The position numbers and the translations under genes are program-made. A stretch of 64,000 bases of DNA, taken from Verrucosispora sp. WMMD573. GTDB lineage: Bacteria; Actinomycetota; Actinomycetes; Mycobacteriales; Micromonosporaceae. The stretch is taken from the NCBI RefSeq assembly GCF_027497175.1, contig NZ_CP114901.1, positions 2,480,001-2,544,000 on the forward strand, read 5' to 3'. The notes below the pieces were generated by a model. It was given only the letters and a program-made list of their open reading frames with translations, was not told where the DNA came from and searched no databases. This document shows, piece after piece, positions 46,513-64,000 of this stretch (the first letter of the stretch is position 1; each line of letters starts with the position of its first letter).

Positions 46513-48816
<2,304 letters not shown>

Positions 48817-48829
<13 letters not shown>

Positions 48830-50766
48830 CCCTCGTCAACATGCCGTTTGCCGATCGGCGTCGGCCGTCGTTCGGGCTCAGCCAGCTGTCCGCGCTGGTA
48901 CGTCGCGACTTCGCGACCGAATTCGACGTTCGGGTGTGTTACCTCAACCATGACTTCGTCCGTTACTTCGGCGCACAGGAGTACGACGCCATCGCCGGAG
49001 ACATGGACTTTCACGTCGCCGGTGTGGGGGACTGGATGTTCCGGCAACTCGCCTTTCCGGAACTGCCCGACAATGTCGACGAATACTTCAGTCGCTACTT
49101 CACCGGACCGGCAAAGGCCGCCCTGCGGCGGACGGTGCTGCGCCGTCGTGAGGGCCTGACGGACTTCCTGCTCAGCATGATCGACAAGTATCGGCTCGAC
49201 GAGGCCGAACTGCTCGGGTTCAGTTCGATGTTCACCCAGAACCTGCCCAGCCTCGCGGCGGCCCGGCTGGTCAAGGGGCGCAACCCGGCGGTGACCACGC
49301 TGATGGGGGGCGCGAACTGCGAGGCGCCGATGGGCGCGGCTCTGGCGCGGCACTGCCCGCAGCTCGATTTCGTCTTCTCCGGCCCCGCCCTGGTCACCTT
49401 CCCCGAGTTCCTGCGTAGCGTGCTGAACGACGACCTGGACCGTGCGCACCAGATCAGAGGCGTGGTGACTCGGCGCAACCAGATGGAGAGCCGGTACCGC
49501 AAGGCGATCGGCCCCAACGCCGACATCGACGACTACTTCGACCCGGACTACACCGAGTTCCGGGCCTCGTTCGAGCAGATGGTGCAGCTGCCGGCCGCCG
49601 CCGCGGAGCCGATGTTGTTCTTCGAGACCTCCCGTGGCTGTTGGTGGGGGGAGCGGGCGCACTGCACGTTCTGCGGCCTCAACGGCCAGACCATGGCCTA
49701 CCGGGCGATGCGGCCGGAGAACGCGCTCAAGCAGTTCGACTGGCTGTTCTCGCACGCGCCGTGGGCGACGAAGTACTGCTGCACGGACAACATCATGCCG
49801 ATGGACTACCTCACCGAGGTGTTCCCGAAACTCGACCCGCCCGAGGACATCTCGATTTTCTACGAGGTGAAGGTGGGTCTGGACATCGAGGACATGGCGG
49901 TGCTGAAACGCGCCGGGGTCAACGAGATCCAGCCCGGCATCGAGGCGATGGCGACGCCGACGCTCAAGCTGATGCGCAAGGGCACCTCGTCGTTCCAGAA
50001 CATCCAGTTCCTCAAGAACTGTCTGCGGTTCGGCATTTCCCCGGTGTGGAACCTGTTGATCGGGTTCCCCGGTGAGGCGGAGGAGACCTACCGGCGGTAT
50101 GTGGAGGATCTGCCGCTGCTGTCCCACCTGCCGCCGCCGCAGGGGTGCTTCCCGGTCCGCTTCGACCGATTCAGCCCCTACTTCAACAACGCGGCCGAGT
50201 ACGGGCTCGACCTTGAGCCGGTGGATCACTACCGGCTCACGTACCCCTTCGACCCGGAGGGGCTACGCGACGTTGCCTACTACTTCGCCGACCAGAACGT
50301 CTCCGACTACATGATCTCGGCGGCGACCTGGATACGTCCGCTGCGCGACCGGGTCGACCAGTGGAACGCGGCCTGGGTGGCGAGCGGTGGGCCCGTGCTG
50401 AGCCTCACCCGGGCCGACGGAGTCACCACCATCCGAGACACGCGGTCAGGCCAGGAAAACAGCTACCTGCTCGATGACGTCGACACGGAGTTGCTGCTGC
50501 ATCTCGACAAGCCGGTACGGGTGGACAAGCTCGCCACCGAGTTGCCGCACCTGGCGGACGTGCTTCAGAGCCGGCTGGCCGGGTTGCGCGAGCGACGGCT
50601 GCTCTTCTTCGAGGGGCACCGGGTGATGAGTCTCTGTGTTTCCGACAGTGATGTCGATCCGATGCCCCGGCCCCGCCGCACCGTGGTCGGTGGGACGAGG
50701 TCGCTACCGCTGTCGCCGACCCGACCAGCGCCGGACATCCGGGATCTGTCCGTGCCCGTGGCCTAG
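48817..50766 (+). CDS. B12-type radical SAM protein of the RiPP-maturase-1 family, in an NRPS cluster
   Basis: 649 residues from ATG at 48817 (GGAAGG 6 bases upstream). The N-terminal half resembles a cobalamin-binding domain (LMGGANCEAPMG, FVFSGPALVTFPEF). The iron-sulfur motif is Cys275-x7-Cys283-x2-Cys286 (RGCWWGERAHCTFCGLNG), not the usual C-x3-C-x2-C; this spacing fits the 'RiPP maturation radical SAM protein 1' (TIGR03975-like) family. PGIEAMATPTLKLMRKG and WNLLIGFPGE are further shared features. Members are thought to be methyltransferases acting at unactivated carbons of peptides. No precursor peptide gene is visible nearby, so here the substrate may be an amino acid or carrier-bound peptide of the NRPS. 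A close homologue is encoded at 59191-61026. Confidence 0.8.
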
Positions 50767-56152: not shown

Positions 56153-57124
56153 TCACAGCCAGCGTTGCCGGACCGCGTTGGCACCAGCCTGGAAGCGGCT
56201 CTCCGCGCCGAGCCGGGCGGTCAGGTCGGACATCATTCGCTGGACGGTACGCACCGACAGCCCGAGTTTGCGGGCGGTCACCTCGTCAGTGTTGCCGTCG
56301 CCGAGCAACTGGAGCAACTGGCGTTCGGTCGGTTCGAGCCCGTTCTCGTCGACAGTCGCCGCGGCGCCGAACGGCGTGGCTGTCGACCAGGCGTGGTCGA
56401 ACAGCGCGCTGAGCGCCGCGGTGATTCCCTCGTTGTGGATCTCGATGGCGCCCTTTCGGGCGTCGTTGGGGTCGACTGGAAGCAACGCGATGCGGCGATC
56501 CACGATGACCATCTGGAACAGGACCACCGGAAGACAACGGGTCTCGCCGCCCAGGCCGTTGAACCAGCGGGCGTACGCGAGGGTGCCCGGATCGTTGCGG
56601 AAGCTTTCCTGGTAGATCGACTTGATGGTGACACCCCGCTCCAGCGCTTCCTGGTTGACCGGCTTGCTGGCGGCCATCGCGTCCGGCCGGTGCGCGCCGC
56701 CCGGGTTGAACGACAAGCATTCCTTCTGGGTCAACCGGGCGAGTTGCTGCAAGCGTTGACGTACCGATTCGAGTTGGACAATCTGAATTAATTGGTCCTG
56801 GTGGTCGGCCTGGTGCGCCTCGGAAAGGGCATGGATGGCGGCCTGAGTGGCCTCGATCTCGTACTGCTGCTGCGCTATCTCCGCCTTCGCGCGGGCGAGC
56901 AGCGCCGCGAGACCCACCTTGGGGCTGGTCGGCCTCAGGCTGCCCGGGCTGACCGGCGACTCGCTGACCAGAGCGAGTTCGATCAGCTCGTCGAGCGCGT
57001 CGTGTACCTGCTGGGTGTCGATCTCCAACGACTCGGCGATCTCGGCGATACCCCAGGTCGACTGGCGCAACATGGTCATGTAAACGGCCTCGGCGGTGGT
57101 CGATATACCCAGGGTGCTGAACAC
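56153..57124 (-). CDS. LuxR-type regulator with TrmB-like N-terminus
   Basis: 323 residues from a GTG with GGGAGG at 6 bases. The N-terminal part (AEAVYMTMLRQSTWGIAEIAESLEID) looks like a TrmB-type winged helix, followed by a Gln-rich coiled-coil-like stretch (about 85-135) and a central ligand or sensor region. The C-terminus is a LuxR-type HTH: LEPTERQLLQLLGDGNTDEVTARKLG then SVRTVQRMMSDLTARLGAESRF. Proteins of this layout control nearby secondary-metabolite genes in actinomycetes. It is divergent from the tiny secreted peptide gene at 57351. It could govern the NRPS cluster, the RiPP operon or both. Confidence 0.8.
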   Translation of the reverse strand: MFSTLGISTTAEAVYMTMLRQSTWGIAEIAESLEIDTQQVHDALDELIELALVSESPVSPGSLRPTSPKVGLAALLARAKAEIAQQQYEIEATQAAIHALSEAHQADHQDQLIQIVQLESVRQRLQQLARLTQKECLSFNPGGAHRPDAMAASKPVNQEALERGVTIKSIYQESFRNDPGTLAYARWFNGLGGETRCLPVVLFQMVIVDRRIALLPVDPNDARKGAIEIHNEGITAALSALFDHAWSTATPFGAAATVDENGLEPTERQLLQLLGDGNTDEVTARKLGLSVRTVQRMMSDLTARLGAESRFQAGANAVRQRWL

Positions 57125-57545: not shown

Positions 57546-57815
57546 GTGCAGCTGTCAGCCGTAACGCTCATTCCAATGACGACGGCACGGACGCCTTTGA
57601 CGCCCGAACGGCTCAAAGACCTGATCCTCGGCTGTCGGGTGGACGGTGACCGAGTTGAACACGTCAAGGTCATTGAGCGTGCCGGATTGATGTGGATAGG
57701 GGCTTACGTCGCCATTTGCGACACCGAGTCGGCCGACCACAATCTGGCTGATCTATGCGGGCGGGCCGCTGCCCGGCTCGACGGCTGGGAAATCATGCGG
57801 CAGTGGAATCTGTGA
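57546..57815 (+). CDS. Small hypothetical protein
   Basis: 89 residues from a GTG with GGATGG upstream; a TTG at 57534 and an ATG at 57576 are alternative starts. The sequence (TPERLKDLILGCRVDGDRVEHVKV, RAGLMWIGAYVAICD, LDGWEIMRQW) is soluble-looking and mixed alpha/beta. I do not recognise a family. It follows the secreted peptide gene by 54 bases and may share its transcript. Confidence 0.5.
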   Translation: MQLSAVTLIPMTTARTPLTPERLKDLILGCRVDGDRVEHVKVIERAGLMWIGAYVAICDTESADHNLADLCGRAAARLDGWEIMRQWNL

Positions 57816-57927: not shown

Positions 57928-58620
57928 GTGATATATGATAATCCAGTCACACATTCCACCGTAACCGACAGAAACCTCGTGCAGCGCGCCGCCTATCAGG
58001 ATCGACGCGTGCTCAGCGCCGACATCAGCGCCGTCCTGCTCAGCGCCGAGCTGGTCGACCTGACCCGAACCGAACTCCTGGTCATCGCGCCCGCCCTCGG
58101 GCAGATGCCGCTGCCGTCCGGGGTCTTCGGCGAGCTTCGCGCCCGCAACCTGAAGGTACGGGTGCTCTTCACCCCGGGCGGGGAACCACTGGCCGACCCG
58201 GTGGCGACTCTCGCCCGCGACGGGGTCGCGCTGCCGACCCCGCTGCACCTGCCGTACTTTCTCGTTGTCCGGGACCGGGCGGTGGTCTATTTACCGCACC
58301 AGGATCCGGTGCGGCCGAGCAGTGATCGACTGACGCGGATCCGCAGTGTCGTGATGGGCGACTCGCTGGCGACGGTGTTCGGCCTGATGTGGGACACCGC
58401 GCTGCAACGGGCCCGGTCCGCCCGGACAACCGCCCGGTCAGACGAGGGTGACGACCTGATCCGCGCGCTCAGCGAGGGCCTGACCGACGATCAGGCAGCC
58501 GTCACCCTGCACATGAGCCGGCGTACCTTCGCCCGGCGGGTATCGGACATGATGCACCGACTTGATGCCAGCACTCGCTTCCAGGCCGGTGTCCATGCCG
58601 CCCGTCGCGGCTGGATCTGA
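57928..58620 (+). CDS. LuxR-type orphan regulator
   Basis: 230 residues from a GTG in a locally AT-rich stretch (GTGATATATGATAATCC). The middle (TELLVIAPALGQMPLPSGVFGEL, RVLFTPGG) resembles the phospholipase-D-like sensor region found in some actinomycete regulators. The C-terminal HTH is ALSEGLTDDQAAVTLHMSRRTFARRVSDMMHRL, then RFQAGVHAARRGW, which parallels the end of the regulator at 56153 (RFQAGANAVRQRW). It lacks that protein's N-terminal winged helix. It ends tail-to-tail with the RiPP operon, so it is a candidate local activator. Confidence 0.75.
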   Translation: MIYDNPVTHSTVTDRNLVQRAAYQDRRVLSADISAVLLSAELVDLTRTELLVIAPALGQMPLPSGVFGELRARNLKVRVLFTPGGEPLADPVATLARDGVALPTPLHLPYFLVVRDRAVVYLPHQDPVRPSSDRLTRIRSVVMGDSLATVFGLMWDTALQRARSARTTARSDEGDDLIRALSEGLTDDQAAVTLHMSRRTFARRVSDMMHRLDASTRFQAGVHAARRGWI

Positions 58621-59184
58621 TCAGACCGACAGGTACGGCACCGGCCAGTGCCGCATCCGAAACGGTAGAACCAGCGTCCGGTCGTCGGCCTGGACCGCCA
58701 GGCCTGCCTCGACCGCGTCCGCGACCAGGTCCGCGTCGACGATGTCCGAGCGGCCGTCCACCGACTCGGCGAGCCGGGCGAACCGGTCAGCGCCCTCTTC
58801 GATGACCATCCGAGCGGCGGGTTGGCCGGGTCGGACATCCTTGATCGTGACTATCCCCGGCCCTCGGCGGTAGTAGAACGAGCCATAGCGGTAGTCGCGA
58901 GCCCAGGCCACGGTGTGGGCGACGTCGTCGAACTCCATCCCCAGGCATGGCGGCAGCAGGTGCGAGTAGGTGTGCAAGGGGAACGCGGGGCGACCGCTCA
59001 GCGCCCACCGGAGCCGAACCGCGTGGCTGGTCACCGCGCGGAGCAGCCGCAGCAGGTCGAGGTCCTGCGTTGGCGAGTGTCCGAACCGCAGGGGCTCCGG
59101 CAGTTCTACGGCACGCAGACTGTAGGCCGCCGGGTCATCGCGCAGCGCATCGAAGGTAACGGCCGTACTCGTCGCCGTCGTCAT
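58621..59184 (-). CDS. DUF5825-like protein of radical SAM RiPP loci
   Basis: 187 residues with no catalytic motif visible. Features are FGHSPTQDLDLLRLLRAVTSHAVRLRW, then HLLPP, a YRYGSFYYRRGPGI segment and a C-terminal LPFRMRHWPVPYL. From memory it fits the DUF5825 proteins seen beside B12-type RiPP radical SAM maturases, but I could not check this. It is the last gene of the operon, 6 bases after the maturase stop. A peptide-binding or partner role for the maturase is inferred. Confidence 0.55.
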   Translation of the reverse strand: MTTATSTAVTFDALRDDPAAYSLRAVELPEPLRFGHSPTQDLDLLRLLRAVTSHAVRLRWALSGRPAFPLHTYSHLLPPCLGMEFDDVAHTVAWARDYRYGSFYYRRGPGIVTIKDVRPGQPAARMVIEEGADRFARLAESVDGRSDIVDADLVADAVEAGLAVQADDRTLVLPFRMRHWPVPYLSV

Positions 59185-61026: not shown

Positions 61027-61085
61027 CGTCTCCGAGGTCCGGCACGGTTGACAGGAGGTGGTGGGTGCCGAGGGGCGACCGCGCT

Positions 61086-61114
61086 GGTCCGGGCGGGTGA
61101 GTCCCGCCCGGACC
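61086..61114 (-). terminator. Stem-loop between precursor peptide and maturase genes
   Basis: A perfect 12-bp stem (GGTCCGGGCGGG with CCCGCCCGGACC) and 5-base loop lie 7 bases after the peptide stop. There is no T-tract. Such structures in RiPP operons allow partial read-through and stabilise the precursor message, giving more peptide than enzyme. Confidence 0.7.
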
Positions 61115-61121
61115 ACCGGGC

Positions 61122-61205
61122 TCACTTGCCCTGCTGCTTGAGAATCACGTGGTACTTGCACGAGCCGTGCGTGACCTTCTTGATGGCCACCTTCTTGATC
61201 TTCAT
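61122..61205 (-). CDS. Putative RiPP precursor peptide (27 residues)
   Basis: The ATG at 61205 overlaps the stop of the ferritin-like gene (ATGA), with GGGGAGGTGA 7 bases upstream, one of the best ribosome-binding sites in the window. The 27-residue product has a Lys/Val/Ile-rich N-terminal half (MKIKKVAIKKV), then THGSCKYHVILKQQGK. It has one Cys (16), two His (13, 19), one Tyr (18) and nine basic Lys/His residues in all, and no signal peptide. It lies directly before a RiPP radical SAM maturase and is followed by a stem-loop. Position, translation signals and composition make it the likely substrate of the maturase and the diiron protein. The mature product and any cleavage site are unknown. 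Confidence 0.75.
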   Translation of the reverse strand: MKIKKVAIKKVTHGSCKYHVILKQQGK

Positions 61206-62038
61206 GTCCGTTCACCTCCCCTCACGAAGGACAGACCGGCGGCCCGTAGCCGGGCCCGGTGCCGCCGGACGAACCAGGCCCGCACCTGCTCCGGGTCGCG
61301 GCCGGTCAACCGGGCACAGGACGTGGAGATGCTGTCCAGTGCGGTGACGTCGAAGCCGATGTCGTGCCACTGCTGACCGTGCTCGCGCCACAGTTCGGCG
61401 CCGGCCGGGGTGGCGGAGACCCGGGACAGGTAGTTGAGCCCGATGGCGATGTGCTGGATCTCGTCGGTCCGCACCGCCTGGTACAGCCGACCGAGCGGAT
61501 CTCCGGCGAAGATCTCGCTGAACAGGATGAACTCGTCGGCCGCGAGTCCTTCCAGGATCGTGTGGACGAGTGCCCGGCCCATGTGCGGCAGGCTCAGCAG
61601 CATCTCGTCCAGCGGTTCCATCGTCTCCTGCGCGTCCGGCTCGACATCGCCGCCGATCGCGCGGGCGTACTGGTAGAAGGCGTCGGCGTGCCGTGCCTCG
61701 TCGGCCGTGGCCAGGGCGAGGCTGAAGCGCAACGGCGCATCCTCGGTGTGTGCCGCGAGCGTGGCCGCGGCGACCAGCCCGGCCTGCTCGGCGTAGTAGC
61801 CACGTGAGGCGGCCCGCCAGGCGATCTCCGTGCGGTCCCAGTCGCTGCGACGCAAGGCATCGCCGATGATGTCGGCTGCCCGCCAGGCCCTCTTGTCCCG
61901 GGTCACCCCGAAGACCCGGTACGCGACGGCGTCGCTGTCGAGTTCGTCGTGCCGAATGAGTGCCATGACCAGCTCCAACGCAGCAGGAGAAAGGTTCTCG
62001 GCAGCACGTTCGCCAGGGAAGGCCGGGCGGCGATCCAT
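61202..62038 (-). CDS. Ferritin-like diiron protein of the RiPP operon
   Basis: 278 residues, mostly helical. The diiron ligand set typical of ferritin-like carboxylate proteins is visible: Glu84 (YYAEQAG), Glu114-x2-His117 (ADEARHADAF), Glu169 (LAADEFILF) and Glu193-x2-His196 (TDEIQHIAIG). Relatives include AurF-type N-oxygenases and ribonucleotide-reductase-like oxidases, which activate O2. As first gene of the operon, with its stop overlapping the peptide start, it probably oxidises the peptide, or may support the maturase. A 14-bp perfect palindrome abuts the start codon and could be an operator; no good ribosome-binding site is visible, so a leaderless message or a later start is possible. 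Confidence 0.75.
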   Translation of the reverse strand: MDRRPAFPGERAAENLSPAALELVMALIRHDELDSDAVAYRVFGVTRDKRAWRAADIIGDALRRSDWDRTEIAWRAASRGYYAEQAGLVAAATLAAHTEDAPLRFSLALATADEARHADAFYQYARAIGGDVEPDAQETMEPLDEMLLSLPHMGRALVHTILEGLAADEFILFSEIFAGDPLGRLYQAVRTDEIQHIAIGLNYLSRVSATPAGAELWREHGQQWHDIGFDVTALDSISTSCARLTGRDPEQVRAWFVRRHRARLRAAGLSFVRGGERT

Positions 62039-62209: not shown

Positions 62210-63568
62210 ATGACTGCGGGACTGGAGCGACTGCGGCACCGGGCAAAAGGGCTGGGCCCACTCGTCGCGGCGCACGGCATCGGTGTCGTCGGTACCGAGA
62301 TCACCGCCTTGGCGCTGCCCACCCTGGCGATCCTCCACCTGGGGGCGTCGCCGCTGGTTGCCAGCGCGTTGTTCGCCATCGAGTTCGGTACCCAGGCGCT
62401 GGCATCGCCGGTACTCGGCGTGTTCGTCGATCGGGCCCGTACGCCGCGCCGGCTGCTCGTCGTCGGGAGCCTCGGCTACGCGGCCGTGGTATCGACGGTG
62501 CCGGTCGCCGCCCTGCTCGACGTACTCGTGATTCCGTTGCTCGCGGTGGTCGCCGTGGTTGCGGGTGGACTCGGTGCCCTTGTCACGATCGGCCTACAGG
62601 CGACCGTGCCGACCCTGGTGCCGCCACAGCGACTGGTCGCGGCGAACTCGGCCATGGCCGGGGCGCGCTCGGTCGGGCAGGTCGCCGGTCCGGCCCTCGC
62701 CGGTTGGCTGGTGCAGGTGGCCGGAGCCGCCGTGGCGATGGGCGTCGACGCGGCTACCCGACTGGTCAGCGTCGTCGGGTACGCCAGGCTGCGTCCCGTC
62801 GCCGTCGCCGACCCGGCCAGCGTGCCTCCCGCCGTCGTGGGTGGGATGGTCGACCAGTTGCGCGAGGGTATCGCGGCGTTGCGGCACCGTCCGGTCCTGG
62901 TACGGGTGGCCGTGACGGCGGCGGCGCTCAACTTCGGCGGCTCCGCCCTCGGCGCGCTCTACCTCGTCTTCGCCTACCAGCACCTGCACCTCTCACCCGG
63001 GCTGGTTGGCATCACCTACGTCGTCAGCAGCGTCGTGTCGATTATCGCGGTCACGATCGCGGGTCGGGTCATCCGCACCCTCGGCATGGCTCGGGTCGTG
63101 CCGATGTTCGCGCCGCTGGCCGGTGCCGCGCTGTTCCTGATCCCGGCGGCCGTCGTCGCCCCGCCCTTCCTCACCCTCGTGGTCTACGAGGCCCTCTTCT
63201 CCTTCTGCGCCACCATCTGGTTCATCGCCACCACGACCCTCCAACAGTCGCTCGTACCCGCCCACCAGTTGGGCCGGGTCATCGCGCTCGGCCGGGCCGC
63301 GACGACCCTCGCGATTCCGGTCGGCGCCCTGCTCGGCGGGGCGCTCGCGCAGTGGTGGGGTCTGACACCGACGTTGATCCTGTTCGCCACCGCCGCGCTG
63401 CTCGGCGGCTGTGTGAGTGGCCTACGCGGCGTCGGCCCGGTGCTGCCCGTCGAGGACTCTGGCACGATCTCGCCAATCGACGCCGCCGACGGCGGCCCGC
63501 AGGTTGGCACCAACGCGCCATCCTCGAAGCCAGCCGTTGACGCCACACCTCGCCGACCCGACAGTTGA
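62210..63568 (+). CDS. MFS transporter, probable RiPP exporter
   Basis: 452 residues from the in-frame ATG at 62210 (MTAGLERLRHRAKGL); an ATG at 62144 would add 22 residues with no binding site, so the start is uncertain. About 12 membrane helices, with FVDRARTPRRLLVVGS as the loop 2-3 signature and GLQATVPTLVPPQRLVAANSAMAGARSVGQVAGPALAGW typical of MFS drug exporters of the enterobactin-exporter-like group. A disordered tail of about 50 residues ends the protein. It is divergent from the RiPP operon and probably exports its product. Confidence 0.8.
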   Translation: MTAGLERLRHRAKGLGPLVAAHGIGVVGTEITALALPTLAILHLGASPLVASALFAIEFGTQALASPVLGVFVDRARTPRRLLVVGSLGYAAVVSTVPVAALLDVLVIPLLAVVAVVAGGLGALVTIGLQATVPTLVPPQRLVAANSAMAGARSVGQVAGPALAGWLVQVAGAAVAMGVDAATRLVSVVGYARLRPVAVADPASVPPAVVGGMVDQLREGIAALRHRPVLVRVAVTAAALNFGGSALGALYLVFAYQHLHLSPGLVGITYVVSSVVSIIAVTIAGRVIRTLGMARVVPMFAPLAGAALFLIPAAVVAPPFLTLVVYEALFSFCATIWFIATTTLQQSLVPAHQLGRVIALGRAATTLAIPVGALLGGALAQWWGLTPTLILFATAALLGGCVSGLRGVGPVLPVEDSGTISPIDAADGGPQVGTNAPSSKPAVDATPRRPDS

Positions 63569-63650: not shown

Positions 63651-64000
63651 ATGGACCTGTTGTCCGCCTACCGTGACATGCTCACCATCCGACTCTTCGA
63701 GGAAAGCCTGCTGCGGTGTGCGGAGCAGGGCCTGGTGCCCGGCACGATCCACCCGTACACCGGCCAGGAGGCGATCGCCGTCGGTGTGCTGGGCGCCCGG
63801 CATCCGGATGAGTGGGTGGTCAGTTTCTACCGCTGCCACGGTCACGCCCTGGCTGCGGGCTGCTCGCCGGAGTCGATAATCCGTGAGGTCCTCGGCCGCC
63901 GGGGTGGGCTCTGCGGCGGCAAGTCCGGCTCGATGCACCTCGCCGACCGGGCCCACCGGCTGCTCGGCTCCACATCGATCGTCGCCGCCCAGCTTCCGAT
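63651..64000 (+). CDS. 2-oxo acid dehydrogenase E1 component, alpha subunit (3' end outside window)
   Basis: ATG at 63651 follows GGGAAG. The 116 visible codons match the start of pyruvate/acetoin dehydrogenase E1 alpha subunits: YRDMLTIRLFEESL, PYTGQEAIAVG, SFYRCHGHALAAG and GGLCGGKSGSMHL. The thiamine-diphosphate motif (GDG...N) lies beyond the window. Such enzymes decarboxylate 2-oxo acids and pass acyl groups to lipoyl carriers. The relation to the RiPP operon is unclear; it may begin a separate locus. Confidence 0.85.
   Translation, partial: MDLLSAYRDMLTIRLFEESLLRCAEQGLVPGTIHPYTGQEAIAVGVLGARHPDEWVVSFYRCHGHALAAGCSPESIIREVLGRRGGLCGGKSGSMHLADRAHRLLGSTSIVAAQLP

Follow-up and report, generated by a model that had tools for sequence, protein, structure and literature searches.

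On the minus strand of a 64,000-nucleotide stretch from Verrucosispora sp. WMMD573 (the window), a reading frame of 27 codons lies in the gene order ferritin-like protein, small ORF, B12-binding radical SAM enzyme (B12-rSAM), DUF5825 protein. Does this small ORF encode a RiPP precursor and, if so, do the enzymes around it define something new? An initial annotation, made from the letters of the sequence, had proposed both. The frame is present as claimed and translates to MKIKKVAIKKVTHGSCKYHVILKQQGK, which can be divided into a leader, MKIKKVAIK(K), a core of about THGSCKY and a free tail, HVILKQQGK. The expression signals on which that annotation drew, namely an ATGA overlap of the start codon with the stop (TGA) of the ferritin-like gene before it, a strong ribosome site and a stem-loop after the stop, were all read or scored from the window sequence. 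The hairpin starts 3 bases past the stop codon, and its score was reached by 0 of 100 mononucleotide shuffles. Coordinates are collected in Table 1.

Table 1. Features of the precursor locus in the window and immediately beyond it
Feature	Position	Strand	Remarks
TrmB/LuxR-type regulator	56153..57124	-	in same 5 loci as the regulator-like protein
Regulator-like protein, weak C-terminal HTH match	57928..58620	+	in 5/17 loci
DUF5825 protein	58621..59184	-	PF19142 82.6 bits, cut-off 25
B12-binding radical SAM enzyme, TIGR03975	59191..61020	-	profile match; start ATG 61020 or 61026
Hairpin 3' of precursor stop	61082..61118	-	16-position stem, one mismatch, 5-base loop, no T run
Precursor peptide gene, 27 aa	61122..61205	-	counterpart in 17/17 loci
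Ferritin-like diiron protein (predicted R2/R2lox fold)	61202..62038	-	predicted fold and homologues
Shine-Dalgarno GGAGGTGA of precursor gene	61212..61219	-	6 bases ahead of ATG
MFS transporter, divergent	62210..63568	+	Pfam match; homologue in 16 other loci
TPP-dependent dehydrogenase E1 alpha	63651..64000	+	continues past window to equivalent of 64607
E1 beta	64604-65569, beyond window		follows E1 alpha
Class-III aminotransferase	65566-66885, beyond window		follows E1 beta

Homologous loci were collected by three routes across several genome sets, starting from the precursor itself, from DUF5825 and from the diiron protein. The precursor search in 201 relatives gave 4 good matches, its own genome included; DUF5825 was matched in 33 of 250 genomes of the same family, with a single match in WMMD573 itself; and within the genus the diiron protein found a match (E ≤ 1e-20) in 10 of 160 genomes, 2 of these 10 having no rSAM match. 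Wherever the diiron protein, the rSAM enzyme and DUF5825 occur together, which is the case at 17 loci, the gap between the diiron and rSAM genes holds a small ORF with the motif G-x-C-[KR]-Y (17/17), so the frame is more than a chance one. Operons without it, the outcome that the initial annotation had set against its own proposal, numbered 0 of 17. The loci spread over three actinobacterial families: 8 are from the same genus, 6 from elsewhere in the same family, 2 from family f15 (G177 and G1199) and 1 from Streptacidiphilus sp. 4-A2. The families involved we take to include the Micromonosporaceae (that of WMMD573) and the Pseudonocardiaceae; individual loci appear to belong to Micromonospora phaseoli (G007), M. 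qiuiae (G058) and Actinopolyspora xinjiangensis (G177), and G309 and G219 would be Solwaraspora strains. At the Streptacidiphilus locus (L093, 8001-10740) the precursor ORF is open, and the matches to both the diiron and the rSAM gene fall in more than one frame, perhaps through sequencing error or decay.

These loci yield 18 peptides of 22–32 residues, since L050 carries two in tandem, both with the motif. All share a leader pattern MxIxxVx[ILV], an invariant core GxC[KR]Y and a free tail, with the longer form [TA]HG[STV]CKY in 15 of the 18. In the 17 peptides other than that of L135, Ile3, Val6, Lys9, Gly14, Cys16 and Tyr18 are invariant; position 12 is Thr in 14 and Ala in 3, His13 is found in 15, and position 17 is Lys in 16 and Arg in one. 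In the L135 peptide, MAIKKVRLEKSVTGTCRYLVPIKTQARTVKKH, Ile3, Val6, Gly14, Cys16, Arg17 and Tyr18 are retained, and positions 9, 12 and 13 are Glu, Val and Thr. Stop codons shorten two peptides to 23 and 22 residues, the L042 peptide stops 4 residues past the Tyr, and the 18 tails terminate in K, L, S or H. The conserved core that had been anticipated is thus borne out; the varying leader is not, the leader being loosely patterned and the C-terminal tail varying in its stead.

For 12 representatives of the 17 peptides, codons 2–18 show fewer replacement than silent changes (pN 0.22, pS 0.34), and codons 19–23 drift freely (pN 0.52, pS 0.50). The other frames gave pN 0.25 and pS 0.30 (+1, with 45 stop-codon cells left out) and pN 0.26 and pS 0.23 (+2); so short and GC-rich a gene yields a modest contrast. 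Gly14 is retained through four different codons. At the RNA level, GGAGGTGA precedes all 17 precursors of the first comparison as well as the L135 precursor, and a hairpin follows the stop. In 16 of the 17 precursors scored, no more than 1 mononucleotide shuffle in 100 reaches the hairpin's score, and in the exception, that of Actinopolyspora, 30 do; in L048, L049 and L051 the hairpin sits about 50 bases further on. So regular a hairpin would suit a small ORF that is no product at all but a leader peptide or RNA element controlling the downstream rSAM gene, with the stem-loop as its attenuator. We regard this as highly improbable: GxC[KR]Y is kept at the protein level across three families, both copies of the tandem duplication have it, the hairpin is followed by no T run, and the curated role of the rSAM family is to act on peptides, with no other candidate substrate seen between the genes. 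A translated precursor is the reading pursued below.

The neighbouring enzymes are likewise as first described. Against TIGR03975, a model for RiPP maturation rSAM C-methyltransferases, the rSAM enzyme scored 556.9 bits (cut-off, 281.85); PF02310 (B12-binding) and PF04055 (radical SAM) are also above cut-off, and a CX7CX2C motif is visible in the sequence. The DUF5825 protein is probably its partner. Since its predicted structure gave no convincing match in a fold comparison, binding of the leader by DUF5825, such as through a PqqD-like winged-helix domain of the kind in RRE-containing proteins, is put forward as putative. Elsewhere in the window a second TIGR03975 enzyme (48817-50766, plus strand; 531 bits) lies inside an NRPS cluster, where inspection by eye gave MbtH-like proteins, an FAD-dependent halogenase-like protein (46728-48290), a flavin reductase-like protein, an alpha/beta hydrolase, PhyH-type and TauD-type oxygenases, a methyltransferase and an SDR as neighbours. 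No RiPP precursor was noticed near this enzyme, and a member of a peptide-maturase family serving an NRPS product would, if true, be of interest in its own right.

For the diiron protein, a Pfam/NCBIfam scan returned no family above cut-off. The predicted model is a helical bundle of R2/R2lox/ADO type, in keeping with the diiron assignment in the initial annotation, and homologues suggest that translation starts at the ATG at 61966. Four carboxylates and two histidines (E84, E114, H117, E163, E193 and H196) are invariant in all 71 aligned homologues; we take them to be putative metal ligands on the basis of R2 motifs. At the position presumed to correspond to the R2 radical Tyr, four residues past the first His ligand, 68 of the 71 homologues have Phe and 3 have Leu. 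Identity as a class I RNR R2 was rejected on this lack of a radical Tyr and on the lack of an RNR Pfam match. An MNIO (DUF692) was also considered and rejected, as the Pfam scan (E up to 1) contained no PF05114 and the predicted fold is of R2 type. Distant relatives (36–37%) occur at L112 (388-981, minus strand) and L113 (7729-8313, plus strand) with an NRPS gene directly downstream, in place of precursor and rSAM, which suggests a possible further role of this diiron lineage with non-ribosomal peptides.

The conserved gene set is larger than the four genes of the initial annotation. An MFS transporter gene adjoins the operon in 17/17 loci, the 16 others showing 27–84% identity to that of the window with the lowest value in Actinopolyspora, and the E1 alpha/beta pair is close by in 15 of 17, namely all 14 of the same family plus L135. 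A class-III aminotransferase was found in 13/17 and a P450 in 8/17, absence here meaning no match within the stretch examined per locus at E 1e-20 or 1e-5, depending on the comparison. The arrangement varies between genera, and the genes stay together. E1 alpha matches PF00676 at 176.6 bits and E1 beta matches PF02779 and PF02780 at 72.5 and 74.9 bits; against the PDH models they score 225 and 169, short of the cut-offs of 394 and 321. As the genome holds nine E1_dh matches, one of them weak, the cluster E1 is one paralogue among several. Neither E2/E3 partners (gene tables, by eye) nor a protease gene was recognised. The TrmB/LuxR-type regulator gene is the probable edge of the cluster. Between it and the regulator-like gene lies an 89-residue protein lacking a Pfam match (57546-57815, plus strand), with counterparts in the four other regulator-bearing loci. 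At the Solwaraspora-type locus L048 (90-5056), a lanthipeptide-dehydratase-type-like protein and P450s were seen upstream by eye.

Which of these enzymes the peptide belongs with can be approached through loci that have only part of the set. A sister locus (L053/L136) consists of a small ORF, rSAM, DUF5825 and MFS, a minimal cluster at which no diiron match was found. In an rSAM tree of 41 rows, which does not include L135, it groups with the 16 diiron-associated rows at a support of 100/99, a value that applies to these 17 rows taken together. Its candidate precursor, MKIKVENVKRPDETRTKKELPRSTGIIPIRSLENK (MKIKVENVKR...), has a similar leader start, no Cys and no core motif. As far as this one locus can show, with a candidate picked by a simple Shine-Dalgarno rule, the core motif follows the presence of the diiron gene. 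Two loci on nearby rSAM branches gave the candidates MKLKKTEIRG... and MTLNKTALRG..., and the same rule gave nothing comparable in 7 of the 10 loci tried. On these few loci, then, the leader seems to go with the rSAM enzyme and the core with the diiron protein; this association seems to be the best evidence in our analysis for the substrate of the latter. In other DUF5825/B12-rSAM loci, L118–L132, two kinds of small ORF recur upstream of the rSAM gene, MKRR[ST]VRHDPI...VIVKMLL and MRKNVVENDPINGNRDQLR...VTVTVK, with a P450 beside 6 of the 15 loci; these are apparently further groups of C-methylated RiPPs.

The minimal L136 version, together with the frequency of rSAM/DUF5825 loci that have no diiron gene (25 of the 41 rSAM rows), invites a simpler account, in which precursor, rSAM and DUF5825 make a plain C-methylated RiPP and the diiron, E1 and aminotransferase genes form an unrelated adjacent pathway. 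We think this quite improbable, given that the diiron gene stands directly upstream of the precursor in 17/17 loci, that the core motif was seen only with the diiron gene, and that the L135 genes for E1 alpha, E1 beta, diiron protein, precursor, rSAM, DUF5825 and MFS share one orientation and are separated by short gaps.

The reading that we prefer, and consider probable, is that of a RiPP precursor that is modified by B12-rSAM/DUF5825, by the diiron protein and often by E1 and aminotransferase, then cleaved and exported by the MFS transporter. Judged from sequence, a short encoded precursor beside modifying enzymes, with leader and core conserved, is found at 17/17 loci, as a RiPP assignment demands. 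A precursor of 22–32 residues would be translated from the strong ribosome site beside the diiron stop codon. Its N-terminal MxIxxVx[ILV]K-like segment would act as a minimal leader, with putative binding to B12-rSAM/DUF5825, and this pair would C-methylate the core. The R2-like diiron protein may oxidise GxC[KR]Y by hydroxylation, desaturation or formation of a Cys/Tyr bond. Where E1 and aminotransferase genes are present, as in most clusters, their products could then work further on the oxidised residue or provide a building block for it, after which a putative protease would remove leader and tail and the product would leave through the MFS transporter. Curation of the rSAM family as a RiPP maturase supports this sequence of events; the lack of E1 from 2/17 loci and of the aminotransferase from 4/17 counts against it.

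A more specific chemistry can be proposed, tentatively and as a doubtful case. Oxidation by the diiron protein might leave an electrophilic carbonyl or an unsaturated core residue, to which the TPP-dependent E1 might add a two-carbon acyl unit from a 2-oxoacid, the aminotransferase converting the resulting ketone to an amine. TPP enzymes of or near the E1 type carry out carboligation in other natural-product pathways, for example those to prodigiosin and avilamycin. If true, thiamine chemistry would here extend a ribosomal peptide through C–C bond formation, in addition to C-methylation by the B12-rSAM.

E1 alpha/beta and class-III aminotransferases are also small-molecule enzyme types, and in pearlin biosynthesis 3-thia-amino acids are built on a peptide carrier and then released. 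By analogy, the diiron, TPP and aminotransferase enzymes might build a small molecule on one residue of the peptide and release it, leaving no large peptide product; the shortness of the core, and an L042 peptide that ends so soon after its Tyr, would fit. If the peptide were a carrier that grows at its end, however, that end should be conserved, and here the conserved Cys and Tyr are internal and the C-terminus is unconserved; nor was an amino-acyl ligase noticed by eye in the gene tables. A carrier role is accordingly judged unlikely, and a modified and exported peptide remains our preferred reading.

On that reading, the precursor, with its 22–32 residues and one Cys, lends itself to testing as the substrate of an R2-type diiron protein; for such a protein in a RiPP pathway, no described case was found in the open literature. 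The cluster also brings thiamine-dependent E1 and aminotransferase chemistry together with a ribosomal peptide. With so small a leader and so constant a core it is an appealing candidate for reconstitution in vitro, and its layout (diiron gene, then an ORF of 22–32 codons, then rSAM) is a searchable signature, with 110 diiron homologues as places to look.

How far the system departs from known ones differs from part to part. In the alignments made here the diiron protein shares 7–20% identity with R2-like ligand-binding oxidase, aldehyde-deformylating oxygenase, class I RNR R2 and a VlmB homologue, and is set apart from RNR R2 by the Phe or Leu at the presumed radical-Tyr position. Daptide clusters (PMC10036551) also contain a class-III aminotransferase, and the daptide model NF041821 is the best NCBIfam match of the aminotransferase here, at 235.7 bits; the TPP E1 pair stands in place of the daptide oxidative decarboxylase. 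Identity with daptides was rejected, since the score lies below the cut-off of 450 and none of the 18 precursors has a C-terminal Thr. Biphenomycin-like clusters (YHxYxY precursors) are described in PMC12257519 as having a second B12-rSAM with DUF5825; an iron oxygenase and a B12-rSAM act on one peptide there. An iron enzyme is encoded beside B12-rSAM and DUF5825 in both cases, but theirs is an MNIO (DUF692) and the one here is of R2 type, with no Pfam family above cut-off.

The closest likeness in enzymes is to the clavusporins, for which C-methylation by a homologous pair of B12-rSAM and DUF5825 is reported (Zhang et al., Nat Chem Biol 2025, as cited in PMC12257519 and PMC12951456). There too B12-rSAM and DUF5825 are encoded together and act on a ribosomal peptide; as far as these citing descriptions go, the diiron protein, E1 pair, aminotransferase and GxC[KR]Y substrate distinguish the present cluster. 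Other DUF5825 loci of the same family have differing small ORFs upstream of rSAM, such as MRKNVVENDPINGNRDQLR.... The TIGR03975 rSAM, its DUF5825 partner and a short Lys-rich precursor are thus the known part, and the "undescribed RiPP class" of the initial annotation is too strong for the whole module because the B12-rSAM/DUF5825 pair has already been reported to C-methylate RiPPs. What stands of that proposal is the combination: no description of a RiPP cluster that unites an R2-type diiron protein, a TPP E1 pair and a GxC[KR]Y core was found in the open literature. The cluster is best read as a new RiPP subfamily on a known, clavusporin-type B12-rSAM/DUF5825 module, and the diiron/TPP chemistry, if shown, would leave room for a separate RiPP class.
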